From Caulobacter sp. 73W (GTDB lineage Bacteria; Pseudomonadota; Alphaproteobacteria; Caulobacterales; Caulobacteraceae), in the NCBI RefSeq assembly GCF_041021955.1, contig NZ_CP158375.1, forward strand, positions 62,001 through 126,000: 64,000 nucleotides of DNA, written 5' to 3'. This document shows positions 40,019 to 57,700 of this stretch, piece after piece. How positions within the stretch are numbered: position 1 is the stretch's first letter; every line of letters begins with the position of its first letter. The notes beneath the pieces are model-generated. The model ran no database searches and was not told the DNA's origin. It saw only the letters and a program-made list of their open reading frames with translations. The position numbers were made by a program, and so were the translations under genes.

Positions 40019-40209
40019 CAGGGTCCTCCTCCAGCCTTTGGGAAGGTGACTTTATCGAAGCGACAATAAGAACAAAACAATAACCGTCGTTCATCCACAG
40101 GCGGCGGCGCAAGTGAGAATGACTTACGGCGATCAGGCTTGATTGCGAACAATCTGCGGCACCCGCCGATGAGCCGCCTTGGCGATTGGCAGCCTTCGGC
40201 TTGGTGAGG

Positions 40210-40635
40210 CTAGGCTTCTCGGAAGACCGCCTCGATGTTGTTTCCATCCGGATCGAAAACGAAGGCGGCGAAGTACCCCGATGGATAGCCGCCCGTGCGA
40301 AGTCCCGGAGCGCCATTATCGCGGCCTCCGGCCTCGATGGCCGATCGGTGGAAGGCCTCGACCTCCGCGCGGCTTATTGCTCTGAACGCGGTGTGCTGTC
40401 TGACGCCGGCAGGATGAAAGAGGTCGATCCAGAAGATCGGATAGTCGCGGCCGTAGCCCACGCCGGCCAGGTCGGGATCATCGGCGCCGCTGGCCTGGCC
40501 GAACGTCGTGGTGATGCGCATGAGCGGGCGAAGGCCAAGGCTGCCCAGGACCGCGTCGTAGAAGCGTGCGGAGGCTCGGATGTCGCCAACCCCGACGCCG
40601 GTGTGATCGATCCGCCAGTTCAGGTCCTGAGACAC
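40210..40635 (-). CDS. VOC family (glyoxalase/extradiol-fold) protein
   Basis: A 141-residue vicinal-oxygen-chelate protein: IDHTGVGVGDIRASARFYDAVLGSLGLRPL first module and AFRAISRAEVEAFHRSAIEAGG, YFAAFVFDPDGNNIEAVF second module, with metal ligands His near the start and Glu at the end (EAVF) kept. GTG start with AGGAG about 7 bp upstream. The function is not predictable within this family. Confidence 0.85.
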   Translation of the reverse strand: MSQDLNWRIDHTGVGVGDIRASARFYDAVLGSLGLRPLMRITTTFGQASGADDPDLAGVGYGRDYPIFWIDLFHPAGVRQHTAFRAISRAEVEAFHRSAIEAGGRDNGAPGLRTGGYPSGYFAAFVFDPDGNNIEAVFREA

Positions 40636-40644
40636 ACTCGCTCC

Positions 40645-40799
40645 TCAGTGCGGGTCGAGCTTTCCCACTAACGAATTTGACGTGGGCGCCCGGTGAGTGA
40701 CTATGCGGGCATTGCGGGCGAACGCCAGTTTCAGGAGGCGGTCGTCTTCCTGGGCGTCAGGCAAGTCATTGATCGCCGCCTTGTCAGCCTGGACGACCT
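40645..40799 (-). pseudogene. PIN-domain toxin C-terminal fragment
   Basis: Between the M24 gene stop and the VOC start, the minus strand encodes about 50 residues (AINDLPDAQEDDRLLKLAFARNARIVTH) with the C-terminal PIN pattern LPD-x-x-DDRLL...A.IVT; the acidic pair DD is retained. There is no start codon and the fragment runs into the 3' end of the M24 gene, so the 5' half was lost. Confidence 0.5.
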
Positions 40800-42032
40800 T
40801 TACGGGCCAAAGGGCGTGTCGATCGAGGGCGGCGGCTCGGAGAACCAGCGCGGGCCCTGGGCGGTCATGTAGAGGCAATCCTCAATGCGCACGCCAAAGC
40901 GGCCCGGATCATAGATGCCCGGCTCGTTGGAGAAGCACATGCCCGCCGCCAGCAGCGTCTTTTCGCCGTGCACGAAATTGACCGGCTCGTGGACATCAAG
41001 CCCAATGCCGTGGCCGGTGCGATGGGTCAGGCCCGGCGTGCCGTAGCCTGGCGCATAGCCGCGCGTGGCGTAGAAGGCGCGCACGGCGTCGTCGACCTCT
41101 CCGGCGGGCCTGCCTAGCCGTGCGGCGGCGAAGGCCGCGTCCTGGCCCTTGCGGACATCCTCCCACACGGTGCGCACCGCCGCTGCGGGCTCGCCGATCA
41201 CGCAGGTGCGCGAGACATCGGCGTGATAGCCCTCGACCGTGCAGCCAAAGTCCATGAGCACCACGGAGCCGGACCGCACGACCTGCGGCTTGGTGCTGCC
41301 GTGCGGGAAGCTGGTGGCCGCATCGACCGTCGCCTCGCCCGCCGGTGTGGCGCCGCCGCCAGCGGCCATGGCCGCATGCATGGCGCCTGTGATGTCCTGG
41401 CGCGTCATGCCGATGGCGATCGCGCCGCCGACCTTGCGATAGGCGGCGATGGTGATGTCGGTGGCCGCCTGCATCAGGGCGATCTCGGCCGGCGACTTGA
41501 TCATGCGGCACGCGTCGACGATGGCGGCTCCGCTCACCCCGCTGGCGCCGGGGGCGGCCTTCAAGATCCCGTCGGAGACGAAGTGGCGAACGCCGGCGTC
41601 GAAAGCCAGCTTGGCGCCGCCAAGCTTGCGATCCATCAGCCAGCCGGCCGCCAGGGCGTAAGGGTCTTCATGCTCGTTCCAGACGCGCACGTCGGCGGCG
41701 ATGGCCAGCAGCTCTCGCAGGCGATCTTCCTCGAAGGCCGGCGTAATCATCTCCGCCGGCCCCTCGCGCGGGATCATCAGCAGGGTTGGTCGCTCGCTCA
41801 GCCACCACGACACGCCGCAAAAATAGATCATGCTCGAGCCCGGCTCGACGATCAGCGCCGCCAGACCCGACTGCTGCAGGAGCCTTTGGGCCTTGGCGAT
41901 CCGCCCTGCCCGCTCGGCCGCTGAGATCGGCGCTGGTCGGGCTTTGGCCAGAGCAAAGCCGGGCGTCGCAGCCGCGGCGGCCAGGCCCGCCATCAGGCCG
42001 CGCCGGTGGATGGAGAAACGTTTAGCGTCCAT
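40800..42032 (-). CDS. M24 family peptidase (Xaa-Pro aminopeptidase-like), exported
   Basis: A 410-residue M24 protein with a Tat-like signal (MDAKRFSIHRRGLMAGLAAAAATPGFALA). N-terminal domain 33-150 (LLQQSGLAALIVEPGSSMIYFCGV) and C-terminal pita-bread domain with all metal ligands: VVLMDFGCTVEGYHADVSRTCVIGE (two Asp), THRTGHGIGLDVHE (His), CFSNEPGIY (Glu) and RIEDC (Glu). It probably removes an N-terminal residue before proline or opens a related bond. Its start overlaps the M20 gene by 11 bp, so it closes the left-arm operon. Confidence 0.9.
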   Translation of the reverse strand: MDAKRFSIHRRGLMAGLAAAAATPGFALAKARPAPISAAERAGRIAKAQRLLQQSGLAALIVEPGSSMIYFCGVSWWLSERPTLLMIPREGPAEMITPAFEEDRLRELLAIAADVRVWNEHEDPYALAAGWLMDRKLGGAKLAFDAGVRHFVSDGILKAAPGASGVSGAAIVDACRMIKSPAEIALMQAATDITIAAYRKVGGAIAIGMTRQDITGAMHAAMAAGGGATPAGEATVDAATSFPHGSTKPQVVRSGSVVLMDFGCTVEGYHADVSRTCVIGEPAAAVRTVWEDVRKGQDAAFAAARLGRPAGEVDDAVRAFYATRGYAPGYGTPGLTHRTGHGIGLDVHEPVNFVHGEKTLLAAGMCFSNEPGIYDPGRFGVRIEDCLYMTAQGPRWFSEPPPSIDTPFGP

Positions 42033-43458
42033 GACCGGCGATCTCCCCCAAGAGCACGTTCCAATAGGTCAGCTCCTTGTCGAAGGACGCCAGCGGCACG
42101 CGCTCGTTGGCGCCATGGGCGCGCATGTCGTCGGGGAAAAGGCCAAGGCTTCCCGCCCCATAGGTCGGCACGCCGGCGCGGCGATATTCGCGCCCCTCGG
42201 TGCCGCCCGACGACAAGCTCGGCTCCAGGGTGACGCCGGGCCAGGTGGCGTTGGTCGCCGTCTGCAGGGCCGCCAGGATGTCCTTGCGCACCGGGGAAAT
42301 CGGGCTCTCCACCGCCTCCCCCACCAGAGAGATGGCGATCTTGTCGCCCACGGCCTTTTGGATCTTGGCCTGGACCGCGGCGGCCGGCGTGCCCGGCAGG
42401 ATGCGGCAGTTGACCGTGGCCGTGGCGCCGGTCGGCAAGGCGTTGGGCGCATTGCCGCCGCGCAGCATGGTGGCCACGCAGGTGGTCCACAGGATGTTGC
42501 TGGAATTGGGATGGCGCTTGGCCTCGGCAATAGCCGCCGCATCGGTCGGATCGGTCAGCAGGCGCTCCAGCGCCGAGCCGAAAGCGCCGCCCTCGTCCTT
42601 GGCCATCTTGGCGGCCATGGGCCGGGTGATCTCGTTGAGCTCGACCGGGAAACTCAGCGCCTGGACGGCCTTGAGGGCGTCGGCCAGGTCGTAGACGGCG
42701 TTATCGGGACGCGGCGCCGAGCTGTGGCCGCCCGGGTTGGACGCGGTCAGCTCGAACGTGGCCGTGGTCTTCTCCGCCGCCTGCATGCTGAAGGCCACGG
42801 GCTTGCCGTCCTTGCTGAGCAGGCCGACTCCGGCGTCGGCGTTCAGGGCATACTCGACGCCCTGCATCAGCGGATGGGCGATGACCTTGCGCGTCGACAG
42901 CATGCCGGTCTCCTCGTCGCCCGAGAAAGCGAGGAAGAGATCGCGATCGGGCGTCCAGCCGGCCCGTTTGAGCCGCGCGAAGGTCTCGGTCAGCACGGTG
43001 ACGGCGAACTTGTTGTCGGTGGAGCCTCGGCCATGCAGGTAGCCGTCCTTCTCCATTGGAACATAAGGGTCGCTCGTCCAGCTGCCGGGGACCGCGTCGA
43101 CCACGTCCATGTGGGCGAGCAGGGCCACGGGCTTCTTGGGACCGCCCTTGCCCTTGTAGCGGACGATGAGGCCTTGTGTGCGCTCGCCATCGATATCGAT
43201 GGGCACGCGAACGATGTCTTCTGGCGCGAAGCCGGCCTGCGCCAGGCGGGCTGTCACCACCTCGACCACCTTGGGGACCTGCCCTCGCCCCTTGGCGCTT
43301 GGAATAGCGACCAGGGTCTTGAGCAAGGCGCGGGCGGCTGCGCGGTCGGCGTCGGTGGGCGCAGGTCCCGCCGGCGCGGCGCCCGCCACGCCCGACTGGG
43401 CGAGCATGGCGGAGGCGGCGACGGCGGCGACGAGCGATCGGGCGAGAAGCGACGGCAT
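42022..43458 (-). CDS. M20 family metallopeptidase, exported
   Basis: A 478-residue M20 peptidase with a Sec signal (about 1-27, ending AGAAPAG). Metal and catalytic motifs: LLAHMDVVDAVPGSW (His, Asp), HGRGSTDNK (Asp), AFSGDEETG (Glu, Glu) and GGTEGREY (His-substitute region at the end; the terminal ligand is in HGANERVPL). It cleaves dipeptides, N-acyl amino acids or similar amides in the periplasm. It sits directly before the M24 gene and after tandem hairpins that follow the TBDR. Confidence 0.9.
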   Translation of the reverse strand: MPSLLARSLVAAVAASAMLAQSGVAGAAPAGPAPTDADRAAARALLKTLVAIPSAKGRGQVPKVVEVVTARLAQAGFAPEDIVRVPIDIDGERTQGLIVRYKGKGGPKKPVALLAHMDVVDAVPGSWTSDPYVPMEKDGYLHGRGSTDNKFAVTVLTETFARLKRAGWTPDRDLFLAFSGDEETGMLSTRKVIAHPLMQGVEYALNADAGVGLLSKDGKPVAFSMQAAEKTTATFELTASNPGGHSSAPRPDNAVYDLADALKAVQALSFPVELNEITRPMAAKMAKDEGGAFGSALERLLTDPTDAAAIAEAKRHPNSSNILWTTCVATMLRGGNAPNALPTGATATVNCRILPGTPAAAVQAKIQKAVGDKIAISLVGEAVESPISPVRKDILAALQTATNATWPGVTLEPSLSSGGTEGREYRRAGVPTYGAGSLGLFPDDMRAHGANERVPLASFDKELTYWNVLLGEIAGHGR

Positions 43459-43485
43459 GGGTGATCCTTCAGAACAGTAAGGGGA

Positions 43486-43520
43486 CCTTGCGGGCCAGGC
43501 TGTGGGCTAGGCCCGCAAGG
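43486..43520 (-). terminator. Tandem hairpin (proximal to the M20 gene)
   Basis: Arms CCTTGCGGGCC (43486-43496) and GGCCCGCAAGG (43510-43520), 11 bp perfect with a 13-nt loop. It lies in the 108-bp gap between the TBDR stop and the M20 start, and is the second of two such hairpins in the direction of transcription. Confidence 0.6.
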
Positions 43521-43527
43521 CGGAGTG

Positions 43528-43559
43528 CGGCGACCGGGCGGGTCAACGACCGGTCGCCG
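43528..43559 (-). terminator. Tandem hairpin (proximal to the TBDR)
   Basis: Arms CGGCGACCGG (43528-43537) and CCGGTCGCCG (43550-43559), 10 bp perfect with a 12-nt loop. It begins 7 bp past the TBDR stop. Together with the next hairpin it may cap the TBDR message or attenuate expression of M20/M24. Confidence 0.6.
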
Positions 43560-43566
43560 AACCGTC

Positions 43567-46500
43567 TTAGAACGCCACCGTGATGGCGCCGAACAGATAG
43601 CGGCCCGCCGCGTCGTAGAACTGCGGGTAGGTGTTGCCGTTGCCGCCGTCCTCGATGGCCGCCGTCGTGGTCAGCGGCGGATCCTTGTCGAAGATGTTGT
43701 TGACGCCGGCGCGCAGGGACACGCCCTCGCGGATGTCATAGGCCGCCGACAGGTCGAAGTAGCTGCGCGCCGCCAGTTTCTCATTGGCCTGCGAGAAGCT
43801 GCCGCTGAGGGCCGGCTGGCTGCTGGTCTGGGAGATCTTCACCTCCGAGATGTAGCGCCAGGTGGCGTTGAACTGGACGTTCCACGGCGAGCTCCAGCTG
43901 GCCAGGAGCTTGTGGCGCCATTCGGGACGCGGACGACCGCAAAGGCCGCCGTAGAGACCCGAGCACTCATAGACGTCGGACGTCGGCGAGTTGGGGAGCG
44001 GTTCGGTCTCGTACTTGTCGAGCCAGGTGCCAACCAGGTTGAAGTTGATGGCGCCCAGGCTCTCCATGCCGAGGTTGGCCAGGTTCAGGCGGTAGTCCAC
44101 CGACAGGTCGACGCCCGAGGTCGTCAGCGAGCCGGTGTTGATGTTGAACCGCTTGAAGTAGCCGTCGTCGGTCAGCCACAGGCTGCCGCCGGCGCCGCGT
44201 TGGATCAGGCTGCAGAAGTAAGGATCGCCGCTGGCCAGGCAGTTGTTCATGGCCAGGCCCGGGTTAACCGAGCCGATCATGTCGGCGACCTTGATGCTGA
44301 AGTAGTCCAGCGAGACGGTCAGGCCCGGCACGAAGCCCGGTTGGGCCACGACGCCCAGCGAGTAGGTGTCGGCCTTTTCGGGGTTCAGGTCGGGGTTGCC
44401 GCCGATCAGCGAGTTGAACTGGCCGGCCGGGTTGTCGATGACGCGGCCGTACTGGGCGGCGCTGACGCCGGTGCGGGCGCACTGGGCGGCCGTCGCGAAG
44501 GGCGTGGCCCCCGCGCACGGATCGTAGAGGCCGTTGGCCAGTTCCGTCAGCTCGGCCTCGAAGAGGCTTTGCGAGGAGAAGAGCTCGACGACGTTGGGGG
44601 CGCGGACCGCGCGCTGGTAGGAGCCGCGCAGGCGCAGCTCACGAACCGGCGACCAGTTCAGCCCAGCCTTGAAGGCGTCGGTCTTGAAGCCGGTGTTGTA
44701 GTCCGAATAGCGATAGGCGCCTTCGAACGAAAGAAGGTGGATGCCAGTGCGGCCTTCCACGAGCGGGGCGTTGATTTCGGCGAAGAGTTCCTTGGCCGAC
44801 GTCGTGCCGTTGACGGGGAACTCCGGGCTTACGGCGTTTTGGTAGGCCTCGTCCGGCACCAGATCGAGGGTGTTCTTGCGGTATTCGGCGCCGAAGGCGA
44901 CGCCTACGCCGTTCTCGGCCATCGGGCTGGTGATGCCGTACTTGCCAAGATCGCCGCTCACCGAGAAGACGATGTCGGTCAGGGCCGTGTCGCCCGTGAT
45001 GCTCTTGGATTTAGCGATGTAGTCGATGGCCGCTGCGCTAGTGCCGCTGGTCCCGAAGTAGTTGAGCGGGGTGCACTTGGCGTCGTTGTTGCCGCTGTTG
45101 GCGTCGGCGTTGATGGCGCAGACCGCCTGGCCGAAGGTCGACGAGCCGGTGCGGCGATCGGTGACCACGTTCAAGGCGTTGGCCACCCGTTGCTGGTTGG
45201 CGTCGCCGGTGAAGCGCGAGCGGTAGCTGACATTGGCGTAGGACGCAAAGAAGTCATAGCTGAAGGCTTCGTTCAGCTGGCCGCGCAGGCCGCCGACGAA
45301 GCGGAAGGTGGTGTGGCGGATGTCGTCCTGGCGCGTGCCGCCTTCGACGTTGCGGCGCGACAGCACGACGCCGTTGGCGATGCTCTGCGGGCCAAGATAG
45401 GCGCCCGCGGCGTCGTAGTTGCTCCCCGTCGCCCTTCCGCCTGACGTGCAGAGGAAGCCGGCTTGCTGAGCGCTGAGCAGCGGGTTGTCGCAGTTGATCC
45501 CGCCGGCGCTGCCGAAGATCCCGCCCGACACCGTGCCCGGCGCGATCTGGGCGACCGAGCGGTCGTCCATGAAGCCCACCTCGAAGTAGGGCTCGAACAT
45601 GTCGTTGATCTTGTAGTGGCCGATGGCGCCCAGCGTGTAGCGCTGGTCAGGCCGCTGATAGTAGTTGTAGGGCGCGAAGTTGAAGGTTTGCGTGCCGGCC
45701 GCGAAGGTGCCGTTGGCGTTGCGGAACGCGGTCGGCACGCCGGCCAGCCCTGCGGTGTTGGAGAAGTTGGCCGGGTTGTTGAAGCCCGAACCCGAGCAGG
45801 AATACTGGCTGCCGTTGGGGCCCGTCGTGCCCAGGGCGCAGGCGCTGTAGTCGTAGTCCTTTTGCAGGACCGCATCCACCTTTCGATAGGTGGCGTAGGC
45901 GGTGATGTTGCCCTCGCCGCCGGCGCTGTTGACGCCCGCGATGATCGAGTAGTCCTGGGTGAAGCCATTCCAGACGTTCTTGTCGGGCTTCAGGTACTCG
46001 CCCGGCAGGCGCGCATTGTTCTGATCGAGCAGATCACGCAGACCGCCGCGGTCGTTGTTGTGCTGGAAGGTGCTGAAAGCCGCGCCCAGCTTGATGCCTT
46101 CGAAGTTGTCCAAAAGCGTGAAGTTGACCACGCCGGCGATGGCGTCCGAGCCGTAGACGGCCGAGGCGCCGCCGGTCAGGACCTCGACGTTCTTGATCAG
46201 GGCCGCGGGCACTTGGTTCAAGTCCGACGGGGTCGACTTGGGCGAGCCGTAGGGCAGACGCCGGCCGTTGACCAGAACCAGGGTGCGCGATGGGGTCAGG
46301 CCGCGAAGGTCGACCTGGGCGGTGCCGGTCGCCTCGTTGGACGCAGCCGCGCCCTGAGCTGCGAACACCTGCGGCAGGGCGTTGACCAGGTCTTCGGTGC
46401 GCGTCGCGCCGCGCGCGGCGAACTCCTCGCCGCCGATCTGCACGATGGGGCTGACGCTCTCGACATTGGCCGAGCGGATGCGCGTGCCGGTGATGACGAT

Positions 46501-46620
46501 CTCTTCGACGACCGCGTCGTCTTGAGCATGCGCCGTCTGCGCGACCGCCAGACCCCCGAACAGGCTGGTCGCCAGAAGCGCGGCCTTCAAGGTCGCGCCA
46601 GGTCGTAAGGTAGAAGCCAT
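43567..46620 (-). CDS. TonB-dependent receptor in left arm of divergent locus
   Basis: A 1,017-residue TBDR. Signal about 1-34 (ending AHAQ), TonB-box region VEEIVITGTRIRS, plug with LVLVNGRRLPYGSPKSTPSDLN and VEVLTGGASAVYGSDAIAGVVNF, then a barrel ending YLFGAITVAF. The plug-barrel organisation is that of the 26.9-kb receptor. It is flanked by an esterase and two peptidases on the same strand, so it probably imports their common substrate. ATG 46620 has AAGGGGG seven bases before it; the frame begins 18 codons earlier but looks non-coding. Confidence 0.93.
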   Translation of the reverse strand: MASTLRPGATLKAALLATSLFGGLAVAQTAHAQDDAVVEEIVITGTRIRSANVESVSPIVQIGGEEFAARGATRTEDLVNALPQVFAAQGAAASNEATGTAQVDLRGLTPSRTLVLVNGRRLPYGSPKSTPSDLNQVPAALIKNVEVLTGGASAVYGSDAIAGVVNFTLLDNFEGIKLGAAFSTFQHNNDRGGLRDLLDQNNARLPGEYLKPDKNVWNGFTQDYSIIAGVNSAGGEGNITAYATYRKVDAVLQKDYDYSACALGTTGPNGSQYSCSGSGFNNPANFSNTAGLAGVPTAFRNANGTFAAGTQTFNFAPYNYYQRPDQRYTLGAIGHYKINDMFEPYFEVGFMDDRSVAQIAPGTVSGGIFGSAGGINCDNPLLSAQQAGFLCTSGGRATGSNYDAAGAYLGPQSIANGVVLSRRNVEGGTRQDDIRHTTFRFVGGLRGQLNEAFSYDFFASYANVSYRSRFTGDANQQRVANALNVVTDRRTGSSTFGQAVCAINADANSGNNDAKCTPLNYFGTSGTSAAAIDYIAKSKSITGDTALTDIVFSVSGDLGKYGITSPMAENGVGVAFGAEYRKNTLDLVPDEAYQNAVSPEFPVNGTTSAKELFAEINAPLVEGRTGIHLLSFEGAYRYSDYNTGFKTDAFKAGLNWSPVRELRLRGSYQRAVRAPNVVELFSSQSLFEAELTELANGLYDPCAGATPFATAAQCARTGVSAAQYGRVIDNPAGQFNSLIGGNPDLNPEKADTYSLGVVAQPGFVPGLTVSLDYFSIKVADMIGSVNPGLAMNNCLASGDPYFCSLIQRGAGGSLWLTDDGYFKRFNINTGSLTTSGVDLSVDYRLNLANLGMESLGAINFNLVGTWLDKYETEPLPNSPTSDVYECSGLYGGLCGRPRPEWRHKLLASWSSPWNVQFNATWRYISEVKISQTSSQPALSGSFSQANEKLAARSYFDLSAAYDIREGVSLRAGVNNIFDKDPPLTTTAAIEDGGNGNTYPQFYDAAGRYLFGAITVAF

Positions 46621-46754
46621 TTTATCCCCCTTGGATTTTGGCTGCGCCGGGATCTTCCGGCTAGGTCGGAGCAAGGCTTGGGCGTCGACCGCTTCGGGTG
46701 TCGAAGCGGCCTGGCCTTAAGCTTGGGTGGAACATGTCGCCGGCGGCGGGTCGG

Positions 46755-48482
46755 TCAGTACCGCCAGCTGGTCAGGTCAGCCCCCTTGGGCGCGGTCTCT
46801 TCGATGCGCTTGAGGATTTTGGGCAGGTAGAAGGTGTTGTAGCGAAGCCTGGAGATGGCGATGGGATTGGCCTTGTCGCCGTTCCAGCAGTGCTCGTCGC
46901 GGTCGCCGTAGGTCACCTCGCCGCCATAGGGCGGATCGGTCTTCTTGAGGAAGTCCTCCATCAGGTAGACGGCGTTGTTGAGATAGAAGTTGTCCATGTC
47001 GCCGACATAGACGTTGATCTTGCCCTGCAGCTTGGGACCCAGCGTTTTCCAGTCACGCTCCAGGATGTGGCGCAGGTCGTAGTTTTCGCGCCAGTAGGCG
47101 GCGACCTTGGGGTCGATCACGCCCGTGCGCTTGTCCCAGATGCGCTGCGGATAGCCGTCCTCGCCCATGGGCGAGAACACCGCCTCCCAGATGTCCCACT
47201 GGCCGCCGGACCGGGTCTTGTCACCCATGACCAGCTCCCAGCGGTTCTCCATCTCCATCGTATAGGGGACGTGACCCAGATAGTTGCGCTTGCCGGGACG
47301 GGCGATGCGCGTGAACGGGCCTTCGCGCCAATAGGCGTTCTTGTCCTCGTAGATGTTGGTGACCATCAGCTGACGAAAATCGATCGGGTCCGGACAGGCT
47401 GCGTAAGCGCCGTTGTAGTCGTCGGGATATTTGACCTGTACGCCGAGGGCCTCCCAGCCGCCGGTGGAGCCTCCATAGAGGAAGCGAGCCCAGCCGGCGC
47501 CAAGGCCCCGGTACTTCTTCTCGAGCGCCGGGATGAACTCATGGGTGATGGCGTCGCCATAGGGCCCGATATTGGCCGAGTTCACCGCATAGCTGTCGTC
47601 GTAGTACGGGTTGGAGTGATCGATCTCCACGATCAGCATGCGCGGGAACTTGTCCGACACCCACTGGCGATAGAAGTCGTAGGCTTCCTGCTGCTCGGTC
47701 TTGTTGTAGCAGGGCAGATTGAAGCGCTCGGAGTACTCGCACTTCAGGTTGGGATCGGGCGGCGTGGTGCGAAAGCCCCCGAAGTCCTCGGGGAAGTGGC
47801 CGTGGAAGATGGCCAGCGGGTATCTGGCCTCCGGATGCTTGTCGAAATCCTTGGGCACCAGGACGTGGCCGCGGATGAAGACGTCGCGGCCCCAGAACTT
47901 GGAGAGCTTGTCGCTGCGGATCTTGAAGTGGCGGACGAACTCGGTGTCCTTGGGCTCGGCGATGGGCGGATTGACCCGATCCAGCGTCACTTCGATCTCG
48001 CCGGCGCGCTTGGGATCAAAGTCGATCTGCCTGGGCGTGGAGACCAGGTTGCCCGGCTCCTTGCGCCAGTTCTGGCCAGCGCCGCGGGCGGCCGGCAGCT
48101 TCACCACCTTGCCGTTCTCAAGCTTGTAGGTGTCGTACTTGTGCAAGACCGCCTGCACGAAGTAGCGGCCGGCGGGGACCTGCGACAGGTCCTCGGCCGG
48201 AAAGCCCAAGACCCCCTTCCCCACGCTCGTCGACTCGCCCGATTTGAGGCCATCGACGGTGACGCCGAACATCTGGGCGCCGAAATAGTCCGGGCGGGTC
48301 TGATCCTTGGGCTCGGTCTTGCCGTCCGGGGTCAACATGACCATCACCCGGCCATCATAGGATCCTTGCGGCGCGTCCTTGGGCACGCTCACCTTGAAGG
48401 TCTCGGCCGACGCCGGCGAGGCCGCCAGGATCAGGGCTCCCAAGGCGGCGCTGAACGCCAGCGCCTTGCTCCATCCCGTCAT
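46755..48482 (-). CDS. Exported alpha/beta hydrolase (esterase A), paralogue of 53.5-kb gene
   Basis: A 575-residue exported esterase-like protein. Sec signal about 1-26. N-terminal beta-rich domain (TFKVSVPKDAPQGSYDGRVMVML), then the alpha/beta fold with [41 protein letters not shown], the nucleophile GGSTGGWEA (Ser339) and C-terminal [18 protein letters not shown] (acid region) with EHCWNGD (His). It resembles feruloyl-esterase-like or peptidase-S9-type hydrolases. Nucleotides 47388-48180 are nearly identical to esterase B, whereas the ends differ, indicating gene conversion. It starts 22 bp after the M24 gene. Confidence 0.85.
   Translation of the reverse strand: MTGWSKALAFSAALGALILAASPASAETFKVSVPKDAPQGSYDGRVMVMLTPDGKTEPKDQTRPDYFGAQMFGVTVDGLKSGESTSVGKGVLGFPAEDLSQVPAGRYFVQAVLHKYDTYKLENGKVVKLPAARGAGQNWRKEPGNLVSTPRQIDFDPKRAGEIEVTLDRVNPPIAEPKDTEFVRHFKIRSDKLSKFWGRDVFIRGHVLVPKDFDKHPEARYPLAIFHGHFPEDFGGFRTTPPDPNLKCEYSERFNLPCYNKTEQQEAYDFYRQWVSDKFPRMLIVEIDHSNPYYDDSYAVNSANIGPYGDAITHEFIPALEKKYRGLGAGWARFLYGGSTGGWEALGVQVKYPDDYNGAYAACPDPIDFRQLMVTNIYEDKNAYWREGPFTRIARPGKRNYLGHVPYTMEMENRWELVMGDKTRSGGQWDIWEAVFSPMGEDGYPQRIWDKRTGVIDPKVAAYWRENYDLRHILERDWKTLGPKLQGKINVYVGDMDNFYLNNAVYLMEDFLKKTDPPYGGEVTYGDRDEHCWNGDKANPIAISRLRYNTFYLPKILKRIEETAPKGADLTSWRY
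47388..48180. repeat. Inverted repeat copy 1 (793 bp, in esterase A)
   Basis: Reverse-complement match of 53829-54621, same length (793 bp). By my line-by-line comparison there are about 10 differences (about 98.7% identity), most at third codon positions. The rest of the two genes is visibly more divergent. The repeats are in inverted orientation and flank about 5.6 kb containing M24, MarR, DUF3830, FAD oxidoreductase and BASS genes. Confidence 0.85.
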
Positions 48483-48504
48483 GTCTCTCCCCCGTGCCAT
48501 GTGC

Positions 48505-49893
48505 TTACCGGCCCCCGCCGATGAGCGTGATCTCGGTCTGGCGCCCATCCAAGAAGCGGACGCGTTCGCCGTCGAAGAAGGCGTTCTCCTCGGTGCGGAA
48601 CTGCACTTCGTCGCCGCCCCATTCGGGGACCTTGGCGTAGGCGGCCAGCTCGATGGACCAGGCGGTGTCGGCCCGCACGATCCATTCGCCCTTGTCGTCG
48701 CCGTTTTGGTTGTCCCACATGCCGATCGCGGCGCCGGCGGCATGGCCGTGATAGCCCAGCGGGTGGGTGTAGATGGACGGCTTCAGGCCCTGGGCGATCG
48801 ACTTTGCCCGGGCGGCCTTCAAGATCTCATTGCCGCTTGCGCCCACCTTGTAGGAGGAGAGCAAAGCGTCCTGCACCCTGTTGGCCTGAGCCAGGCCCGC
48901 GCGCAGGCCTGCCGGGGCCTGGGTCTCGCCGTCCTTCAGCACATAGGCCAGGTGCTGGGTGTCGGTGTTCAGCCGCAGATAGGTGATGCCAAAGTCGGTC
49001 CACAGCATGTCACCCTTTTGGATGACGGTGTCGCCCTCGAGCATGTCCTTGTGGCCCTGGCGGATCACGGCGATGGAGGGCTGGAACCAGGCGATCAGGC
49101 CAAGGCGGGCCAGCCGCTCGCGATAGAACCACACCACATCGTCCGTGGTGGTGACGCCTGGCTTGATGACCTCGCTGGAGAAGGCCTCGGCGATGATCGA
49201 GTGGGCCAGGCGCAAGATGCCCGGATAGATCTTCATCTCGGCCGGCGTGCGCGTCTCAAGCCAGCCCACCGACAGCGCCTCGCCCGAGACGATGCGGTCC
49301 TTGAACTTCGGATCCAGCGCCTTGGTCATCTCGCCATACTGGCTAAGCGTCATGCCGTCGCCAAAGGCGGTGAGCGCCGAGGTGTTGATGGCGATCTTGT
49401 CAGGGTTGCGCGCGGCCACCAGGTCGGCGAACGCCTTCCACTGGTCAGGCTGTTGCTCAGGGACCCATGCGGCCTTGAAAAGCCCGCCCAGGCCGTAGCG
49501 GCTGACGGTCAGCCGCTCGATCGGCTTGCCTTCGCCCGGATCGTAGAAGACCAGGATGGTGCGGCGCCGGGCGTGCATGCTCTCGGCGTTGAGCATGGTG
49601 GCGATCACCGGCTCTTCGAAATACTCGCGGGCGACCAGCACCCACATGTCGATCTTCTGCTCGCGCATCAGGCGGGGCACGACCGTGTCCAGGCGCTCGG
49701 CGAGCAGGCGGTTCTGCACCTTGGCCCGATCGCGCATGGTCAGGATCGGCGGCATGGCCGGCTTGGCTTGCTCGACCTCGCTCATGGGAATCACTGGCGG
49801 CTCGGCGGCCGTGGCGGCGAGCGGCGCCAGCGCGGCGGCGACCGCCGCGGCCCAGGCAGCCTTGAGGTTTCGGTTTTTCACAACGCTGGACAT
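48505..49893 (-). CDS. M24-fold metallopeptidase-like protein, exported
   Basis: A 462-residue exported protein with signal about 1-29 (ending ATAAE) and an M24 fold. The N-terminal domain has MREQKIDMWVLVAREYFEEPV. The C-terminal domain has LWTDFGITYLRLNTDTQHLAYV (two Asp), GYHGHAAGAAIG (His), WSIELAAYA (Glu) and FRTEENAFF (Glu). All five metal ligands appear present but spacings differ from classic aminopeptidase P, so creatinase- or amidohydrolase-like chemistry cannot be excluded. ATG 49893 follows a G-run. It is the first gene of the left arm, divergent from MarR. Confidence 0.83.
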   Translation of the reverse strand: MSSVVKNRNLKAAWAAAVAAALAPLAATAAEPPVIPMSEVEQAKPAMPPILTMRDRAKVQNRLLAERLDTVVPRLMREQKIDMWVLVAREYFEEPVIATMLNAESMHARRRTILVFYDPGEGKPIERLTVSRYGLGGLFKAAWVPEQQPDQWKAFADLVAARNPDKIAINTSALTAFGDGMTLSQYGEMTKALDPKFKDRIVSGEALSVGWLETRTPAEMKIYPGILRLAHSIIAEAFSSEVIKPGVTTTDDVVWFYRERLARLGLIAWFQPSIAVIRQGHKDMLEGDTVIQKGDMLWTDFGITYLRLNTDTQHLAYVLKDGETQAPAGLRAGLAQANRVQDALLSSYKVGASGNEILKAARAKSIAQGLKPSIYTHPLGYHGHAAGAAIGMWDNQNGDDKGEWIVRADTAWSIELAAYAKVPEWGGDEVQFRTEENAFFDGERVRFLDGRQTEITLIGGGR

Positions 49894-49908
49894 GGCACCC
49901 CCCCCCAA

Positions 49909-49950
49909 TGACGATGAACGGATCGTCAATTTGCGTGAGAATGGGCGCAT
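49909..49950. promoter_or_regulatory. Candidate operator cluster before the left arm
   Basis: Two elements overlap: an inverted repeat TGACGAT (49909-49915) / ATCGTCA (49922-49928), and a 24-bp stretch (49927-49950) that matches the motif at 50741-50764 at 19 of 24 positions. They begin 16 bp upstream of the M24 ATG, where a repressor would act. In this 321-bp gap no other gene was seen. Confidence 0.5.
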
Positions 49951-50214
49951 CTTGAAAACGCTGTCAAGCGAACGTCACACTGCGGACGCAGCATCTTGCC
50001 TGGCGCCCAATCGGCGTTCACAAGTGATCTTAAGAGCCGGCGCTGACCGGCGCATTCAATGACCGGTAAGGCGACGGTCGCGTCGCAGCCCAATCTGTCT
50101 TGCGCGGACCTGCAGGGGTGGTCTGCAGCGGGACCTGGGCGGCGGCTTTTGATCCGAGCCCTTTCGGTGACCGGCGTTCGCCCGTATAGAGGCGCGCGCC
50201 AGAAGGACCCTAAC

Positions 50215-50688
50215 TTGAATCCAACCTCGATGTTCGATCCCAGCAGCGCGACGTTTCGCTTGTCGAGCTCGCCGTTCTACCTCATCGCCCACGCCGACTT
50301 CATGTATCACGACGCCATGGAGCGGACCCTGCAAAGGCATGGAATAACAAGGCCGATCTACCGCATCTTGACGGTCTTGCGCGAATACCAACCCAGCAGC
50401 GTGACCTTCCTGGCCGACACCGCCCTGATCAAGCGCACCACTGTCAGCCGCATCGTCGACAAGATGAGCCAGATGGGCCTGGTGGCCACCGGTCAGGGCG
50501 GCGAGGACGGTCGCGTCACCGAGGTCAGAATGACCCAAGAGGGTAAGGCCCTGCTCGATCGCCTCACCCCGATGATCGCCAAGCTGATCGCCCGCGCCAC
50601 CGAGGGGATCAGCCACGCCGAACTGACGCGCCTTGTGGCGACCTTGCAGATCATGAGCGCCAACCTCAACCGCTCGCCTCTGGAATAG
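50215..50688 (+). CDS. MarR family transcriptional regulator
   Basis: A 157-residue MarR protein: helices FYLIAHADFMYHDAMERTLQRHGITRPIYRILTVLREY, winged helix SVTFLADTALIKRTTVSRIVDKMSQMGLVATGQGGEDGRVTEVRMTQEG, and dimerisation helices at the end. It should repress the divergent operons until a phenolic or other small ligand binds. The TTG at 50215 is chosen because AGAAGGA lies about 7 bases before it; ATG 50230 is the alternative. The longer upstream frame is not supported. The next gene follows after 136 bp, which carries the second copy of the shared motif. Confidence 0.86.
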   Translation: MNPTSMFDPSSATFRLSSSPFYLIAHADFMYHDAMERTLQRHGITRPIYRILTVLREYQPSSVTFLADTALIKRTTVSRIVDKMSQMGLVATGQGGEDGRVTEVRMTQEGKALLDRLTPMIAKLIARATEGISHAELTRLVATLQIMSANLNRSPLE

Positions 50689-50740
50689 GCGCCTACGCCC
50701 CAACGACGGCGACCGCTGGACAAGATCATTTTATTCGCTC

Positions 50741-50764
50741 CAAATCGCGTGATAATGGTCGCAA
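50741..50764. promoter_or_regulatory. Second copy of the shared 24-bp motif
   Basis: This stretch between MarR and the DUF3830 gene has half-sites ATCGCG and CGCAAT separated by ten bases (TGATAATGGT), an imperfect palindrome, and it repeats the motif seen at 49927-49950 in the same orientation. Shared motif, nearby MarR and two target promoters fit a MarR operator pair. It could also cover the -10 region. Confidence 0.5.
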
Positions 50765-50824
50765 TATGGCGGCGGCGATCGGGGGGCGCATGTCGATCAG
50801 AACACCCAGACGCAGGTGTGCCCG

Positions 50825-51313
50825 ATGGCGCGCCTGAGGATATGCGAGCCGCGCTCCGGTCTGGATGCGCGCTTTGACCTTCTGGAGGCGCAGGCGCCCG
50901 CTTCGTGCGCAGTGCTGGTCATACTGGCCCGCCAGAATGTTCCGCGCGCGGCGTTGCACGCGATGTGGACAGGACCAGAGATTTCCTGCCCCCTGCCCGG
51001 CCGCGAACTGCCCGTAGGCATCGATCTTGACCGGCTTCAGGTGGAGAACCCGGTACGCCAGCCTGCGGCCGGCGACCTGGTGCTCACACCCTTCACGCCC
51101 GGTCCGGTCGGGCCGACCCGCCCATTCGCCGAGGGCGGCCTGGATCTTGGCGTCTTCTACGGCGAGGATGGCCGCCTTTTCTTCCCCGGCGGCTGGATCG
51201 AGGGCTCTCTTTGCGCTCGGGTCATTCCAGAAGACCTCGCGGGCCTGGCCCAGGCGGCGCGCCTCATCCGCCAAAACGGGGCCTGTGAGCTTACCCTGGA
51301 GCTGGCGCCATGA
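50825..51313 (+). CDS. DUF3830 cyclophilin-like protein
   Basis: A 162-residue protein of the DUF3830 family, recognised by HAMWTGPEIS, a PAAGDLVLTP strand, and the GVFYGEDGRLFFPGGWIEGSLCARV pattern. The fold is cyclophilin-like beta barrel. Known members cluster with peptidases, racemases and amidases, but no reaction is established. The start at ATG 50825 is preferred over the upstream GTG. Its stop overlaps the FAD oxidoreductase start (ATGA), so the two are coupled and should act in one pathway. Confidence 0.8.
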   Translation: MARLRICEPRSGLDARFDLLEAQAPASCAVLVILARQNVPRAALHAMWTGPEISCPLPGRELPVGIDLDRLQVENPVRQPAAGDLVLTPFTPGPVGPTRPFAEGGLDLGVFYGEDGRLFFPGGWIEGSLCARVIPEDLAGLAQAARLIRQNGACELTLELAP

Positions 51314-52602
51314 TGCGCCATTCTCTTTGGGGTGCGGTCGGCGGCGGCCCTGCCCCTCGCCCCTCGCTGGATGGTCGTCAGGACGTCGAGATCGCCATTG
51401 TCGGCGCCGGCATCGCCGGCCTCAGCCTGGCTTGCGAACTGGCGGCGGCGGGGCGGACCGTCTGCGTGGTCGAAGCCGTGACGCCCGGCGCCGGCGCCCT
51501 AGGTGCAAGCGCCGGGATCATCGCACCGCAACTGGTGCGCACCACGCCCAACAAGGTCCTGGAGAAGCTAGGTCCCGACCTTGGCGCCAGCTGGCTGCAT
51601 CTGGTGGGAGAAAGCGGCGGCCATCTGTTCGATCTGATCCGCACCTTGCAGATCGACTGCGACGCTCGACCCTACGGCTTCATCGCCCCGGCGCGGGGCG
51701 CCGCGGCCGAGCAGCGGCTGCAACAGGTGCTTGAGGAGTGGAGGCCGTTTCGCCAGGACCTCAGCGTCCTGGACGCGGCGACCACCCAGGCCATGACCGG
51801 GTGCCGCGGCTACGGCGCAGCCGTGCTCGACGCCAGCGGCGGCGGGGTCAATCCGCTCAAGCTGGCCGCCGGCTTAGCGGCCCGCGCGGTCGAGGCCGGA
51901 GCCGCTCTCTTCCATCACAGCCCAGCAACCGCCCTTGAGCGGGTCGGAACGCGCTGGCGGCTGGAAGCTGGAGGCGGCGTGGTCGAGGCCGACAAGATCG
52001 TGCTGTGCGCCAACGGCGGCAACCAGTTCCTCCATCCCAGCCTCGACGCCACCGTCCTTCCCATGCGCGTGCATGAGCTGGCCACAGCGCCGATCTCGCA
52101 ACGCCTGCGGGCCTCCATCTTGCCTGGCGGCCAGTCGCTCACCGATCTTGAGCTCGACATCTTCTCGATCCGCTTCGCCGAGGGTGAGCGGATGGTGACC
52201 TTCTATCCGGTCAAGGAAGAGGCCTCGGCCGAGGCGATCGAGGCGGCGGTCAACCGGCGCCTGGCGGACATGCTCCTAGACTACGAGCCGGTGCGCATCG
52301 AGCATCTTTGGGAAGGGGTCGCCTGGATCAACAGCAGCCTTCTGCCGCGCATCGTCGCCCTGGACGACGGGCTCCTGGCCGTTCAGGCCTGTAACGGGCG
52401 GGGGATCGCCACCAACGCCATCGTCGGCCGGGAGATCGCGCGCATGCTGTTGAGCGACGGCCGCTATCGTCCGGCCATCGCTGTCGAGCGACCAAAGCGG
52501 ATCGGGCGTGTGCCCTTTATGCGCCAGGCCCCCGGATTGATGCTGCGGCTGGGCCGCGCGTTGAGACAAGCCAAGAGCCGCTTGCTAGGCAAGGAGTCCT
52601 GA
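51310..52602 (+). CDS. FAD-dependent oxidoreductase, DAO (PuuB/OrdL-like)
   Basis: A 430-residue flavoprotein of the D-amino-acid oxidase fold. The dinucleotide motif IVGAGIAGLSLACELAAAGRTVCVVE lies about residues 29-54, SAGIIAPQLV next, ASGGGVNPLKLAAGLAARAVEAG in the middle, and GVAWINSSLLPRIVALDDGLLAVQACNGRGIATNAIVGREIA at the C-terminus, the G-R-G flavin-contacting end seen in gamma-glutamylputrescine oxidase-like enzymes. It probably oxidises an amine or amino acid released by the envelope hydrolases. It lacks a signal peptide and acts in the cytoplasm. Confidence 0.87.
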   Translation: MMRHSLWGAVGGGPAPRPSLDGRQDVEIAIVGAGIAGLSLACELAAAGRTVCVVEAVTPGAGALGASAGIIAPQLVRTTPNKVLEKLGPDLGASWLHLVGESGGHLFDLIRTLQIDCDARPYGFIAPARGAAAEQRLQQVLEEWRPFRQDLSVLDAATTQAMTGCRGYGAAVLDASGGGVNPLKLAAGLAARAVEAGAALFHHSPATALERVGTRWRLEAGGGVVEADKIVLCANGGNQFLHPSLDATVLPMRVHELATAPISQRLRASILPGGQSLTDLELDIFSIRFAEGERMVTFYPVKEEASAEAIEAAVNRRLADMLLDYEPVRIEHLWEGVAWINSSLLPRIVALDDGLLAVQACNGRGIATNAIVGREIARMLLSDGRYRPAIAVERPKRIGRVPFMRQAPGLMLRLGRALRQAKSRLLGKES

Positions 52603-52625
52603 CGTGCGCGCTAGGGGAACGCACC

Positions 52626-53519
52626 ATGGGCGGGCCAAGCCTCGCAAACATCGCCGAGAGCGTGCTCCTGCCAGCTTCGCTGGCGGCGATCATGTTCGCC
52701 ATCGGCCTGTCGCTCAAACCACGCGCCTTCCAGACCCTGACCATCGATCGTCGGCCCGTGGTCGCGGGCCTGATCGGCATTGTTCTGCTGGTGCCCCTGG
52801 CGGGCGTGGCGGTGGCCTGGGCCTTTGCGCCGACCCCGGCCTCGGCGGTGGGTCTTGTTCTTTTGGCCACCTGCCCGGTCGGGATCTTGGCCAATGTCGC
52901 CACCGACCTTTGCCGGGGCAACACCGCCCTTTCCATCGCCCTGACGGTGATGATCAGCGCGCTCTATGTGATCGCTGCGCCCCTGGTGGCGCACTACGCG
53001 GTCGAGCTCGCCTTTGGAGAGGTGCGGCGCATCCAGGCGCCGACGGGCGATCTCTTCGCCAAGGTCGCCCTGATCACCGTGGGCCCCGTCAGCGCCGGGC
53101 TGGCGACGGCGCGGGCCTTCCCGAACTTGGCCGCGCGCTGGGCTGCGCCCATCAAGACCGCCGGATCGATCGTCCTGGTGCTGGTCTTCGCCTGGATAGC
53201 CGCGCGCCAGCGCACGGTGCTGGCCGATTCCATGGGCCTGATCGTCGGCCTTGTCCTGCTGGTGAACCTGATCAACGCCGCGATCGGCGTCTTGGTGGCC
53301 CGCGCCGCCCGATTAGAGGGGCCCGACGCCACGGCAGTCATCTGCTCGCACCTGGTGCGCCAGGAAGGCACGGCGATCTTCATCGCCGTCAGCGTGCTGG
53401 GCGCGCCCGACATCGCCGTGCCGCTGATCATCAACACCTTCGTGGGGCTAGCGGTCTGCGCGGTCCTTTTCATTCCCTTGCGTCTTCGTCGGCCCATCGC
53501 CGAGGAGGCGCACCCTTAA
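52626..53519 (+). CDS. BASS (bile acid:sodium symporter-like) transporter
   Basis: A 297-residue membrane protein with about nine hydrophobic segments. Features of the BASS/arsenite permease superfamily: LLPASLAAIMFAIGLSLKPRAF, LVLLATCPVGILANVATDLCRGNTALSIALTVM (the crossing helix with small residues) and a C-terminal half AVICSHLVRQEGTAIFIAVSVLGAPDIAVPL. Such carriers move organic acids with sodium. It is 23 bp behind the FAD enzyme and 16 bp ahead of esterase B. Likely direction is import of a breakdown product, though efflux cannot be excluded. Confidence 0.83.
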   Translation: MGGPSLANIAESVLLPASLAAIMFAIGLSLKPRAFQTLTIDRRPVVAGLIGIVLLVPLAGVAVAWAFAPTPASAVGLVLLATCPVGILANVATDLCRGNTALSIALTVMISALYVIAAPLVAHYAVELAFGEVRRIQAPTGDLFAKVALITVGPVSAGLATARAFPNLAARWAAPIKTAGSIVLVLVFAWIAARQRTVLADSMGLIVGLVLLVNLINAAIGVLVARAARLEGPDATAVICSHLVRQEGTAIFIAVSVLGAPDIAVPLIINTFVGLAVCAVLFIPLRLRRPIAEEAHP

Positions 53520-53535
53520 GTCCTGGAGCTTTTGC

Positions 53536-55254
53536 ATGAAACGCGCCCTCGCCGCCTCTCTCAGCCTGGGCGCCCTTTGCATGGCCGCCTCCCCGACCAT
53601 GGCGCAAAGCTTCAAGGTGACCATTCCGGCGTCCGCGCCCGAGGCGGTCTATGACGGGCGGGTGCTGCTGGTACTGACCGCCAAGGGTGGCTCGGCGCCC
53701 ATCAGCCAGGTCGATCGCACCTTCGCCTCCGCCCAGATCGTCGGCACGGATGTGGAAGGTCTGGCCCGCGGCGGATCGGCGGTCATCGCCCTGGATGAGA
53801 CCGGCTATCCGGCCAAGAGCCTCAGCGAGGTCCCCGCCGGCCGCTACTTCGTGCAGGCGGTCTTGCACAAGTACGACACCTACAAGCTTGAGAACGGCAA
53901 GGTGGTGAAGCTGCCGGCCGCCCGCGGCGCTGGCCAGAACTGGCGCAAGGAGCCGGGCAACCTGGTCTCCACCCCCAGGCAGATCGACTTTGATCCCAAG
54001 CGCGCCGGCGAGATCGAAGTGACGCTGGATCGGGTCAATCCGCCCATCGCCGAGCCCAAGGACACCGAGTTCGTCCGCCACTTCAAGATCCGCAGCGACA
54101 AGCTCTCCAAGTTCTGGGGCCGCGACGTCTTCATCCGCGGCCACGTCCTGGTGCCCAAGGATTTCGACAAGCATCCGGAGGCCAGATACCCGCTGGCCAT
54201 CTTCCATGGCCACTTCCCCGAGGACTTTGGCGGCTTTCGCACCACGCCGCCCGATCCCAACCTGAAGTGCGAGTACTCCGAGCGCTTCAATCTGCCCTGC
54301 TACAACAGGACCGAGCAGCAGGAGGCCTACGACTTCTACCGCCAGTGGGTGTCGGACAAGTTCCCGCGCATGCTGATCGTGGAGATCGATCACTCCAACC
54401 CGTACTACGACGACAGCTATGCGGTGAACTCGGCCAATATCGGGCCCTATGGCGACGCCATCACCCATGAGTTCATCCCGGCGCTCGAGAAGAAGTACCG
54501 GGGCCTTGGCGCCGGCTGGGCCCGCTTCCTCTATGGCGGCTCCACCGGCGGCTGGGAGGCCCTCGGCGTACAGGTCAAGTATCCCGACGACTACAACGGC
54601 GCTTACGCAGCCTGTCCGGACAGCGTCGACTTTCGGCAGTTCAAGGTCGTGGACATCTACCAGGACGATAACGCGTTCTGGCGGATCGGCCCCTTCGGGC
54701 GCGTGGAGCGGCCCGTGGGCCGTAACTACCTAGGCCACGTGTCGCACACCAACGAGATGGAGAACCGATACGAGCGCGTGCTCGGCTCCAAAACCCGCTC
54801 CGGGGCGCAATGGGACGCCTTCTTCGCCGTCTTTTCGCCGCAGGGGCCGGACGGCTACCCGATACCGCTATGGGATAAGGCCACAGGCGTGATCGACAAG
54901 TCGGTCCTGGAATACTGGCGCGAAAACTACGACCTGCGCCACATCCTCGAGCGCGACTGGAAGACGCTGGGGCCCAAGCTGCAGGGCAAGCTCAACATCT
55001 ACACTGGCGATATGGACAACTTCTATCTCAACAACGCCGTCTACCTGATGGAGGACTTCCTCAAGAAGACCGATCCGCCCTTTGGCGGCGAGGTCGTCTA
55101 CGGCGACCGGGCCGAGCACTGCTGGAACGGCGACAAGGCCAATCCCATCGCCATCTCCAGGCTTCGCTACAACACCTTCTACCTGCCCAAAATCCTCAAG
55201 CGCATCGAAGAGACCGCGCCCAAGGGGGCTGACCTGACCAGCTGGCGCTATTGA
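53536..55254 (+). CDS. Exported alpha/beta hydrolase (esterase B), paralogue of 46.8-kb gene
   Basis: A 572-residue exported paralogue of esterase A with its own signal peptide ([24 protein letters not shown]). The N-terminal domain differs ([20 protein letters not shown]), then nucleotides 53829-54621 correspond to the block shared with esterase A, with Ser336 (GGSTGGW) and [18 protein letters not shown]. The stretch between the block and the C-terminus has diverged ([34 protein letters not shown]). Its 3' end overlaps the convergent amidohydrolase gene by 7 bp. It closes the right arm. Confidence 0.85.
53829..54621. repeat. Inverted repeat copy 2 (793 bp, in esterase B)
   Basis: Partner of 47388-48180. 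Crossing over between the two copies would invert the whole interior segment and exchange the esterase 5' ends; non-reciprocal exchange would explain the block's higher identity. Confidence 0.85.
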
Positions 55255-56519
55255 GGCTGCCGATAGATCTTGCCGGCCTTCATCACAAAACGCACGTGAC
55301 GGAGCGATCCGATATCCTTTGTCGGATCGCCCTGAACCGCCACCAGATCGGCTAGGAAGCCGTCCTGCAGCCGGCCAAGGTCGGCGTCGCGGCGCAGCAC
55401 CTTGGCGTTGCCGGCGGTGGCTGCGGTGAGGGCCTGAATGGGCGTCATGCCGTAGCGGACCATCCAGTCGAGCTCCCGCCAGCTTTCGCCGTGGGTGAAG
55501 ACGCCCACATCACTGCCGACGCCAATGTTCACGCCTAGCCGCAGGGCCGTGCGGAACGCCTTCTCGGCGGCGACCATGGAAGGCGTCGGAGCGCTTTGGC
55601 CCGGCACGTAGCCTTGGAAGTACTGAGAAGTTGAGGCCGGCGCGGTCAGGGTCGGCACATAGGTCGTCCCCTTGTCCTTCATCAGCTTGAAGGTCGCCTC
55701 CGACGCGCCATAGCCGTGCTCGATGGTGTCGGCCCCGGCCAGCACCGCACGGCGGATGCCTTCGTCGCCGGCGGCGTGGATCGCCACTGGCCGCCCCGAG
55801 GCATGGGCGATCTCGACGGCCACATCCAGCTCGCGCTGGGTGAAGGTCGGGCGGGTCGAGCCGTCCGGTCCGGTGCGATAGTCCGAATAGAGCTTGATCC
55901 AGTCGGCGCCTGCCGCCGATTGCCGCCGTACCGCCGAGGCCATCTGCGCCTCGCCGCTGACTTCCTCGGCGCCCTGCGGCAGGTCCATGTCGGTGCGAAA
56001 GCCCTTGCGCGGGCCATAGGTCCCCGTGGCCACGATCGCCCAGGTCGCCACCACAAGGCGCGGCCCTTCGATCACCCCATCGTCGATGGCTTTCTTCAGC
56101 GAGACATCGGCGTCGGCCGCGCCCTCGCTGCCCAGGTCGCGCAGAGTGGTGAAGCCAGACTGCAGCGTGCGCGCCGCGTCCCGTCCGCCGCGCAAGGCGC
56201 GGTAGTAGGGCGACTCCTTGAGCACCTGATCGTCCCAGGTGGTCTCGTTGTAGGGGTGCAGCAACAGATGGGAGTGCAGCTCGATCAGCCCGGGGATCAG
56301 CGTTGTCCCCGGCAGAGCGACCACTTCGGCGCCCATAGGCGGATCGCCGCGCGGTCCGACCCGGACGATCTTGGTCCCATCGACCGTGACCGACCAGCCC
56401 TTCTGCGGCGTCGCCTGCCCCGCGGTCCAGACCGCGTCCGGCTCCAGCACATAGGTCGCCGCTAGCGCCTGAGACGCCAAGCCGACGGCGGCGGCCGCCG
56501 CCAATGAGACGATCTTCAT
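55248..56519 (-). CDS. Amidohydrolase family protein (prolidase/Xaa-Arg dipeptidase-like), exported
   Basis: A 423-residue amidohydrolase with a Sec signal ([21 protein letters not shown]). Metal ligands: HSHLLLHP (His-x-His), WIKLYSDY (bridging Lys), AIHAAGD (His), EHGYG (His) and GSDVG (Asp). It looks like the Cc2672/Sgx9260 group from Caulobacter, described as L-Xaa-L-Arg/Lys dipeptidases, which supports peptide scavenging as a theme of this region. It is convergent with esterase B (7-bp overlap). Confidence 0.85.
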
Positions 56520-57620: not shown

Positions 57621-57629
57621 CTCATATTG

Positions 57630-57647
57630 ACCCGCGTTCGCGCGGGT
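57630..57647 (+). terminator. UUCG-loop hairpin after lipoprotein gene
   Basis: Arms ACCCGCG and CGCGGGT close a TTCG tetraloop 10 bp after the stop. There is no U-tract. It is an unusually stable hairpin likely to cap the transcript end. Confidence 0.6.
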
Positions 57648-57700
57648 GCGAGACCGCCCATTCGCTGAGGCGTCGCGCCTCTTGCCGGGGGGAGTTGGGG

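Follow-up and report, generated by a model that had tools for sequence, protein, structure and literature searches.

Evidence for recurrent, partial gene conversion between two inverted esterase paralogues in three Caulobacter genomes

The window analysed here is a stretch of 64,000 nt of Caulobacter sp. 73W (contig NZ_CP158375.1, positions 62,001 to 126,000). It contains two esterase genes, esterase A on the reverse strand and its paralogue esterase B on the forward strand, which enclose genes for an M24 family protein, a MarR-type regulator, a DUF3830 protein, a FAD-dependent oxidoreductase and a BASS-type transporter. We find that the two esterase genes have very probably undergone recurrent gene conversion, as an old pair of paralogues in partial concerted evolution. 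According to this explanation A and B would be old members of one alpha/beta-hydrolase family, one in each arm of a divergently transcribed cluster, and in each of three Caulobacter lineages one paralogue would repeatedly have received its core (codons 99–362, in esterase B numbering as throughout) and, less fully, its C-terminus (codons 460–572) from the other.

The repeat formed by the inverted genes is 1452 nt long (46755–48206 and 53803–55254) and 90% complementary, with a spacing of 5596 nt. This agrees with the initial annotation, which was made from the sequence of the window alone and described outward-facing inverted copies. It also reported a 793-bp block (47388–48180 against 53829–54621) with about 10 differences. 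We counted 10, of which nine are at third codon positions. Identity between the two genes is uneven along their length: 126 of 228 nt (55%) in the N-terminal codons 20–95, 782 of 792 nt in the core block, 65% in codons 363–459, hereafter the cassette, and 320 of 339 nt (94%) in codons 460–572. The N-terminal part and the stretch after the block are thus diverged, as had been noted. The C-termini had been described as clearly more diverged as well, which does not fit with their 320 identical positions or with their grouping by genome in the trees described below. The C-terminal differences are concentrated at codons 471–492 and 516–526, and the final ∼150 bases before the stop codons are nearly identical. 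The diverged regions have sharp edges at codons 98/99, 362/363 and 459/460. The likely start codon of esterase A is the ATG at 48482. When the block was used as a query against the window genome, these were the two places found, with 40 of 81 candidates scored. A collapsed assembly was considered as a source of the likeness; the assembly of the window genome (G000) as a single contig of 4.0 Mb and the 10 block sites that differ between the copies argue against it.

We searched 390 genomes of the family for the same pair, scoring at most three candidates per genome. A relative at E ≤ 1e-60 was present in 30 of the 390 genomes, and two full-length copies in three: the window genome, G009 and G282. 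Each of these pairs is inverted and outward-facing and encloses the same genes in identical order and orientation. Two matches each in G066, G238 and G305 were adjoining pieces on one contig, and two incomplete matches in G362, on different contigs, may represent one gene or two; none of these was counted as a pair. In a class-wide sample 2 of 385 genomes matched at E ≤ 1e-150, namely the window genome and one genome with a single copy. Among plasmids the only related DNA was distant (one match, covering 37% of the query at 69% identity). Both A and B types are present in other genera, too. Three A/B pairs found elsewhere (L025a/b, L036 with L040, and L046 with L038) are inverted but convergent, and their blocks show 73–80% amino acid identity.

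Within each genome the blocks of A and B are almost or entirely identical (window genome 782/792, 98.7%; G009 775/792, 97.9%; G282 792/792, 100%), whereas block identity between the three genomes is 85.6–90.5%. The same is seen at fourfold-degenerate sites of the block, of which 122/126, 119/127 and 126/126 (94–100%) are identical within the respective genomes and 75/114 to 92/118 (66–78%) between them. Because silent sites are alike within but not between genomes, selection at the protein level is not the cause of the likeness. Many block residues are invariant across 34 homologues, as expected if strong purifying selection rather than DNA exchange had kept the blocks alike, but in view of the fourfold-degenerate sites we regard this explanation as next to impossible. 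The block thus shows the pattern of concerted evolution by gene conversion in all three genomes, both at all sites and at fourfold-degenerate sites.

Site patterns among the four genes of the window genome and G009 separate the regions clearly. Concerted sites outnumber orthologous sites 63 to 0 in the block and 11 to 3 in the C-terminus, while the numbers are 3 to 49 in the N-terminal region and 1 to 64 in codons 363–459. The third possible pairing was seen at 0, 0, 2 and 3 sites, respectively. Phylogenetic trees of 45 copies gave the same partition: the block and the C-terminus join A with B in each genome, and in the N-terminal region and the cassette the copies sort by paralogue, A together and B together. 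The copies were drawn from 46 loci, the family loci L068, L069 and L071, the pairs and G012, leaving out L021 (= G009), L049 (= G012), L051–L054, L058–L061, L063, L066, the incomplete, B-like L064 and the distant matches L007–L011. Approximately unbiased (AU) tests in IQ-TREE, carried out on 13 of the 45 copies, rejected paralogue clades for the block (log-likelihood difference, delta lnL, 465, p 3e-8) and the C-terminus (delta lnL 60, p 4e-4), and rejected genome clades for the N-terminal region (delta lnL 103, p 1e-9) and codons 363–459 (delta lnL 204, p 9e-37). The edges of the mosaic are exactly the same in G282 as in the window genome. For G009, the 5′ edge falls between codons 90 and 101, single differences appear from codon 361 (361–363), and the third edge is at 459–464.

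In the N-terminal and cassette trees a B clade of eight copies is formed by the three Caulobacter B genes with L025b, L028, L038, L039 and L040 (support 0.94 and 1.00, respectively); this clade is absent from the block and C-terminal trees. As the B clade spans genomes, the A/B split predates these Caulobacter species, and duplication before the species split is seen in both trees and in the shared gene order. In the block tree the six Caulobacter copies group together (0.98) and then with the A-type copies L022 and L065 (0.96), suggesting that A-type sequence overwrote B and that A was the net donor. Esterase B would accordingly consist of an A-type core bearing a B-type N-terminus and cap.

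Some observations weigh against this interpretation or parts of it. The case for the C-terminus is weaker, with 11 concerted against 3 orthologous sites. It evolves in concert in the trees of all three genomes, but at fourfold-degenerate sites in two only (window genome 39/45, G282 48/50), the value for G009 (35/47) being no better than those between genomes (32/47 to 38/46). The pair was found in no more than three of the family genomes searched, and the three convergent inverted pairs elsewhere are not homogenised, so inverted copies alone are insufficient for homogenisation. An assembly error could inflate the 792/792 of G282 if this is a short-read assembly. Finally, the direction from A to B is read from one clade (0.96), and the same pattern could arise if the B gene was originally assembled on a duplicated core of A.

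The initial annotation had called for recent gene conversion or recombination between the inverted copies. The block identities, trees and AU tests in three genomes strongly support this, and since conversion is recurrent in three species the claim is now stronger than could be known from one sequence. A single recent duplication or conversion in this strain would by itself fit the high block identity in the window, but the mosaic recurs in G009 and G282 with boundaries that are almost unchanged, each genome having been homogenised separately, and the A and B types in other genera make the duplication an old one. We find a strain-specific event hardly credible. For the recurrent conversion we propose RecA-dependent homologous recombination between the inverted copies, which would mostly be resolved without net inversion. 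The N-terminal part with its signal peptide and codons 363–459 would have been spared as too diverged to pair, and selection perhaps keeps both different, as setters of partner or substrate. A refinement of the conversion model holds that the boundaries are functionally meaningless and mark only where divergence blocked further recombination. Heterology barriers to recombination are general, and at the block edges identity falls at once to about 65%. On the other hand, almost the same codons mark the boundaries in all three lineages, and A cassettes of different species are 95–99% identical at the protein level, which suggests constraint without being decisive. We consider the refinement possible but lean slightly away from it.

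It had also been proposed that the inner 5.6-kb segment may be invertible and act as a phase switch. In such an evolved switch, reciprocal crossover would regularly flip the segment, swap the esterase N-termini and re-wire the operon arms. The repeat arms are long and near or fully identical and should permit some RecA-mediated inversion, and inversions have been seen among recombinants of inverted copies in Salmonella, according to the sections of that study cited here (PMC8262849). We did not find support for a switch, however. The segment has the same orientation in all three genomes. N-terminal type and cassette type are linked by clade membership in all 45 copies: the B clade has the same eight members in both trees, so there is no recombinant joint among the copies. 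The order M24, esterase A, TonB-dependent receptor, with the three as immediate neighbours, is also seen in 4 of the 17 non-Caulobacter loci in which the receptor follows the esterase (L022, L036, L046 and L065), the nearest M24 match of most other loci being at the far end of the operon; the present order is therefore probably older than the Caulobacter pair. Both arms begin in one divergent region, so a flip would not be a simple on/off change. Nor would it reconnect promoters to the amidohydrolase flank, as had been suggested, since this gene reads towards esterase B and lies outside the unit shared by the three genomes. Searches for the phage-integrase (PF00589) and resolvase (PF00239) families gave no site-specific recombinase match near the cluster. 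Genome-wide there are three PF00589 matches at 2.51–2.86 Mb and no PF00239 match; the cluster is at about 0.1 Mb, and the distance to the nearest phage-integrase match is about 1.25 Mb on a circular contig and 2.4 Mb on a linear one. We judge an evolved phase switch to be very improbable.

The Salmonella work, as far as its cited sections go, also indicates what recombination between inverted copies can produce. Inverted tuf genes and kan cassettes are homogenised by recombination, which sometimes inverts the intervening segment: an inversion was carried by 5 of 59 recombinants of the inverted cassettes and by as many as a quarter of those of the tuf genes, at an average recombination of 2.6e-6 per cell per generation (PMC8262849). 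In Salmonella, recombination thus mostly converts without inverting, and rare flips can be expected. That system differs from ours in being experimental and in using near-identical copies. Rare RecA-mediated flips are possible in the Caulobacter cluster. That they amount to a low-frequency bet-hedging switch, in which a few cells flip the 5.6-kb segment besides conversion, seems to us quite improbable. If true, two chimeric esterases would be made reversibly, one with the B N-terminus and A cap and one the reverse, and the operon arm feeding the TonB-dependent receptor would be exchanged. The invertible hsdS genes of pneumococcus with PsrA resemble the esterase pair in that inversion at intragenic inverted repeats exchanges gene parts; the parts of that report cited here describe a dedicated recombinase and demonstrated inversions (PMC7096588), neither of which was seen for the esterase pair.

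Both esterases matched PF00756 (Esterase) slightly below the curated cut-off of 22 bits (A 21.6, B 20.2). Sequence searches of solved structures returned weak matches only, the best being 8z91 (E 0.0013). An AlphaFold model of esterase B (mean predicted local distance difference test score 83.5) also had 8z91, a soil metagenomic esterase, as its best match over residues 177–568 (Z 26.9, root-mean-square deviation 3.2, 308 aligned residues). The predicted fold is thus that of an alpha/beta hydrolase of the CE1/esterase-D type, with 8z91 as the nearest solved chain. Identity to 8z91 is 16%, and unlike it esterase B has an extra N-terminal part of ∼170 residues. S336, D494 and H528 are invariant in 34 homologous sequences and, judging from the motif, form the putative catalytic triad. 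In the model, the Ser336 elbow precedes codons 363–459 and the strand leading to Asp494 follows them. Caps are common at that position of the alpha/beta-hydrolase fold, and the segment may have such a role.

The neighbouring genes are listed in Table 1. The gene list of the initial annotation (M24, MarR, DUF3830, FAD oxidoreductase, BASS, TonB-dependent receptor, M20, amidohydrolase) agrees with Pfam. An M24 gene is the same direct neighbour of the esterase in L017, L094, L022, L036, L046 and L065, and an operon of esterase, TonB receptor, M20 and M24, often with additional M24 genes, recurs in sphingomonads and Parahaliea. The nearest NCBIfam model to the FAD oxidoreductase is the L-pipecolate oxidase AmaA (NF050086), at 191 bits against a cut-off of 600. 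From its gene content the cluster probably serves uptake and degradation of a peptide-like compound, and the TonB receptor, M20, two M24, BASS and FAD oxidoreductase neighbours together suggest a substrate with a cyclic imino acid. A literature search on DUF3830 found nothing. No promoter or terminator was found by a scan of 49900–50300, which says little as it covered sigma-70-like sites only. To the right of the cluster a long open reading frame (57548–58957) contains pentapeptide-like repeats, as judged by eye in the translation.

Table 1. Positions of the esterase genes, their parts and neighbouring features in the window
Feature	Position	Strand	Basis or remark
Esterase A (alpha/beta hydrolase, signal-peptide-like start)	46755..48482	-	open reading frame; weak PF00756 match; predicted fold of paralogue B
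Esterase B, paralogue of A	53536..55254	+	open reading frame; PF00756 match; AlphaFold model
Homogenised core block of A	47388..48179	-	codons 99–362 (B numbering); 782/792 identical to B; trees, AU test
Homogenised core block of B	53830..54621	+	codons 99–362; holds G-G-S-T-G-G motif with Ser336
Diverged cassette of A, putative cap over active site	47097..47387	-	codons 363–459; 188/291 nt identical to B (65%)
Diverged cassette of B, putative cap	54622..54912	+	codons 363–459; between Ser336 elbow and pre-Asp494 strand in model
C-terminal part of A, less fully homogenised	46755..47096	-	codons 460–572; AU p 3.6e-4 against paralogue clades
C-terminal part of B, less fully homogenised	54913..55254	+	codons 460–572
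M24 family gene, directly upstream of esterase A	48505..49950	-	PF00557
MarR-type regulator, divergent from M24 gene	50059..50688	+	PF12802/PF01047
DUF3830 protein	50816..51313	+	PF12903
FAD-dependent oxidoreductase	51310..52602	+	PF01266
BASS-type (SBF) transporter	52626..53519	+	PF01758
TonB-dependent receptor, downstream of esterase A	43567..46674	-	PF00593 and PF07715
M20 peptidase	42022..43458	-	PF01546
Second M24-type gene, left end of three-genome unit	40800..42032	-	M24-type NCBIfam matches below cut-offs
Stretch absent from matching site of G009 and G282, carries whole cluster	40131..55254	.	empty sites

The three genomes carry the cluster of 14.5–15 kb at different chromosomal positions. 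The part syntenic with G009 and G282 spans about 40810–55254, bounded on one side by the second M24 gene and on the other by the stop codon of esterase B; the shared unit ends at or near the stop codons of its outermost genes. The two flanks of the window genome adjoin each other without the cluster in G009 (C5) and G282 (C1), part of the left flank being itself rearranged in G282, and the sequences flanking the clusters of G009 and G282 partly match other places of the window genome. Divergence within the cluster (85% to G009, 74–81% to G282) resembles flank divergence (84–86% and 77–84%), which fits with relocation or an old transfer. The amidohydrolase gene runs on the other strand and terminates within the 3′ end of esterase B (55248–55260). 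The cluster seems to have landed at the last codons of the amidohydrolase gene, whose stop codon would thus now be in inserted DNA. No match to integrase or resolvase families was found at the cluster, transposase families not being part of the search, and no tRNA gene that might have been a landing site turned up in the window.

Partial concerted evolution is already known, the clearest of the cases compared here being mtrA-1/mtrA-2 of methanogens. As far as the cited part of that report goes, these are also old paralogues with one repeatedly converted domain and another that is kept distinct, but they are a tandem pair in archaea with a fused transmembrane domain (PMC4632066); the esterase pair is inverted, occurs in three bacterial genomes and adds an internal unconverted cassette. 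A survey of long-lasting concerted evolution in prokaryotes catalogues cases such as tuf, amo and psbA, in which paralogues are closer within a genome than orthologues, silent sites included, as here. The sections of the survey cited here describe 26 genes, none of them an esterase; they ask for at least five species and full-length conversion, and name partial cases as future work (PMC6053082). The esterase pair, in three genomes among 390, falls short of five species. Our literature search by titles and abstract openings found no report of such an esterase pair.

Taken together, the esterases represent a clean bacterial example, found in nature, of partial concerted evolution, in which the core and, to a lesser extent, the C-terminus are refreshed while the cassette and N-terminus stay apart. 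They also carry a warning that identical inverted gene blocks need not imply a phase switch. The convergent pairs that are not homogenised (L025, L036/L040 and L046/L038) provide a natural contrast to the Caulobacter pair, which itself can serve as a direct test of what sets conversion boundaries, recombination barriers or selection on specificity.

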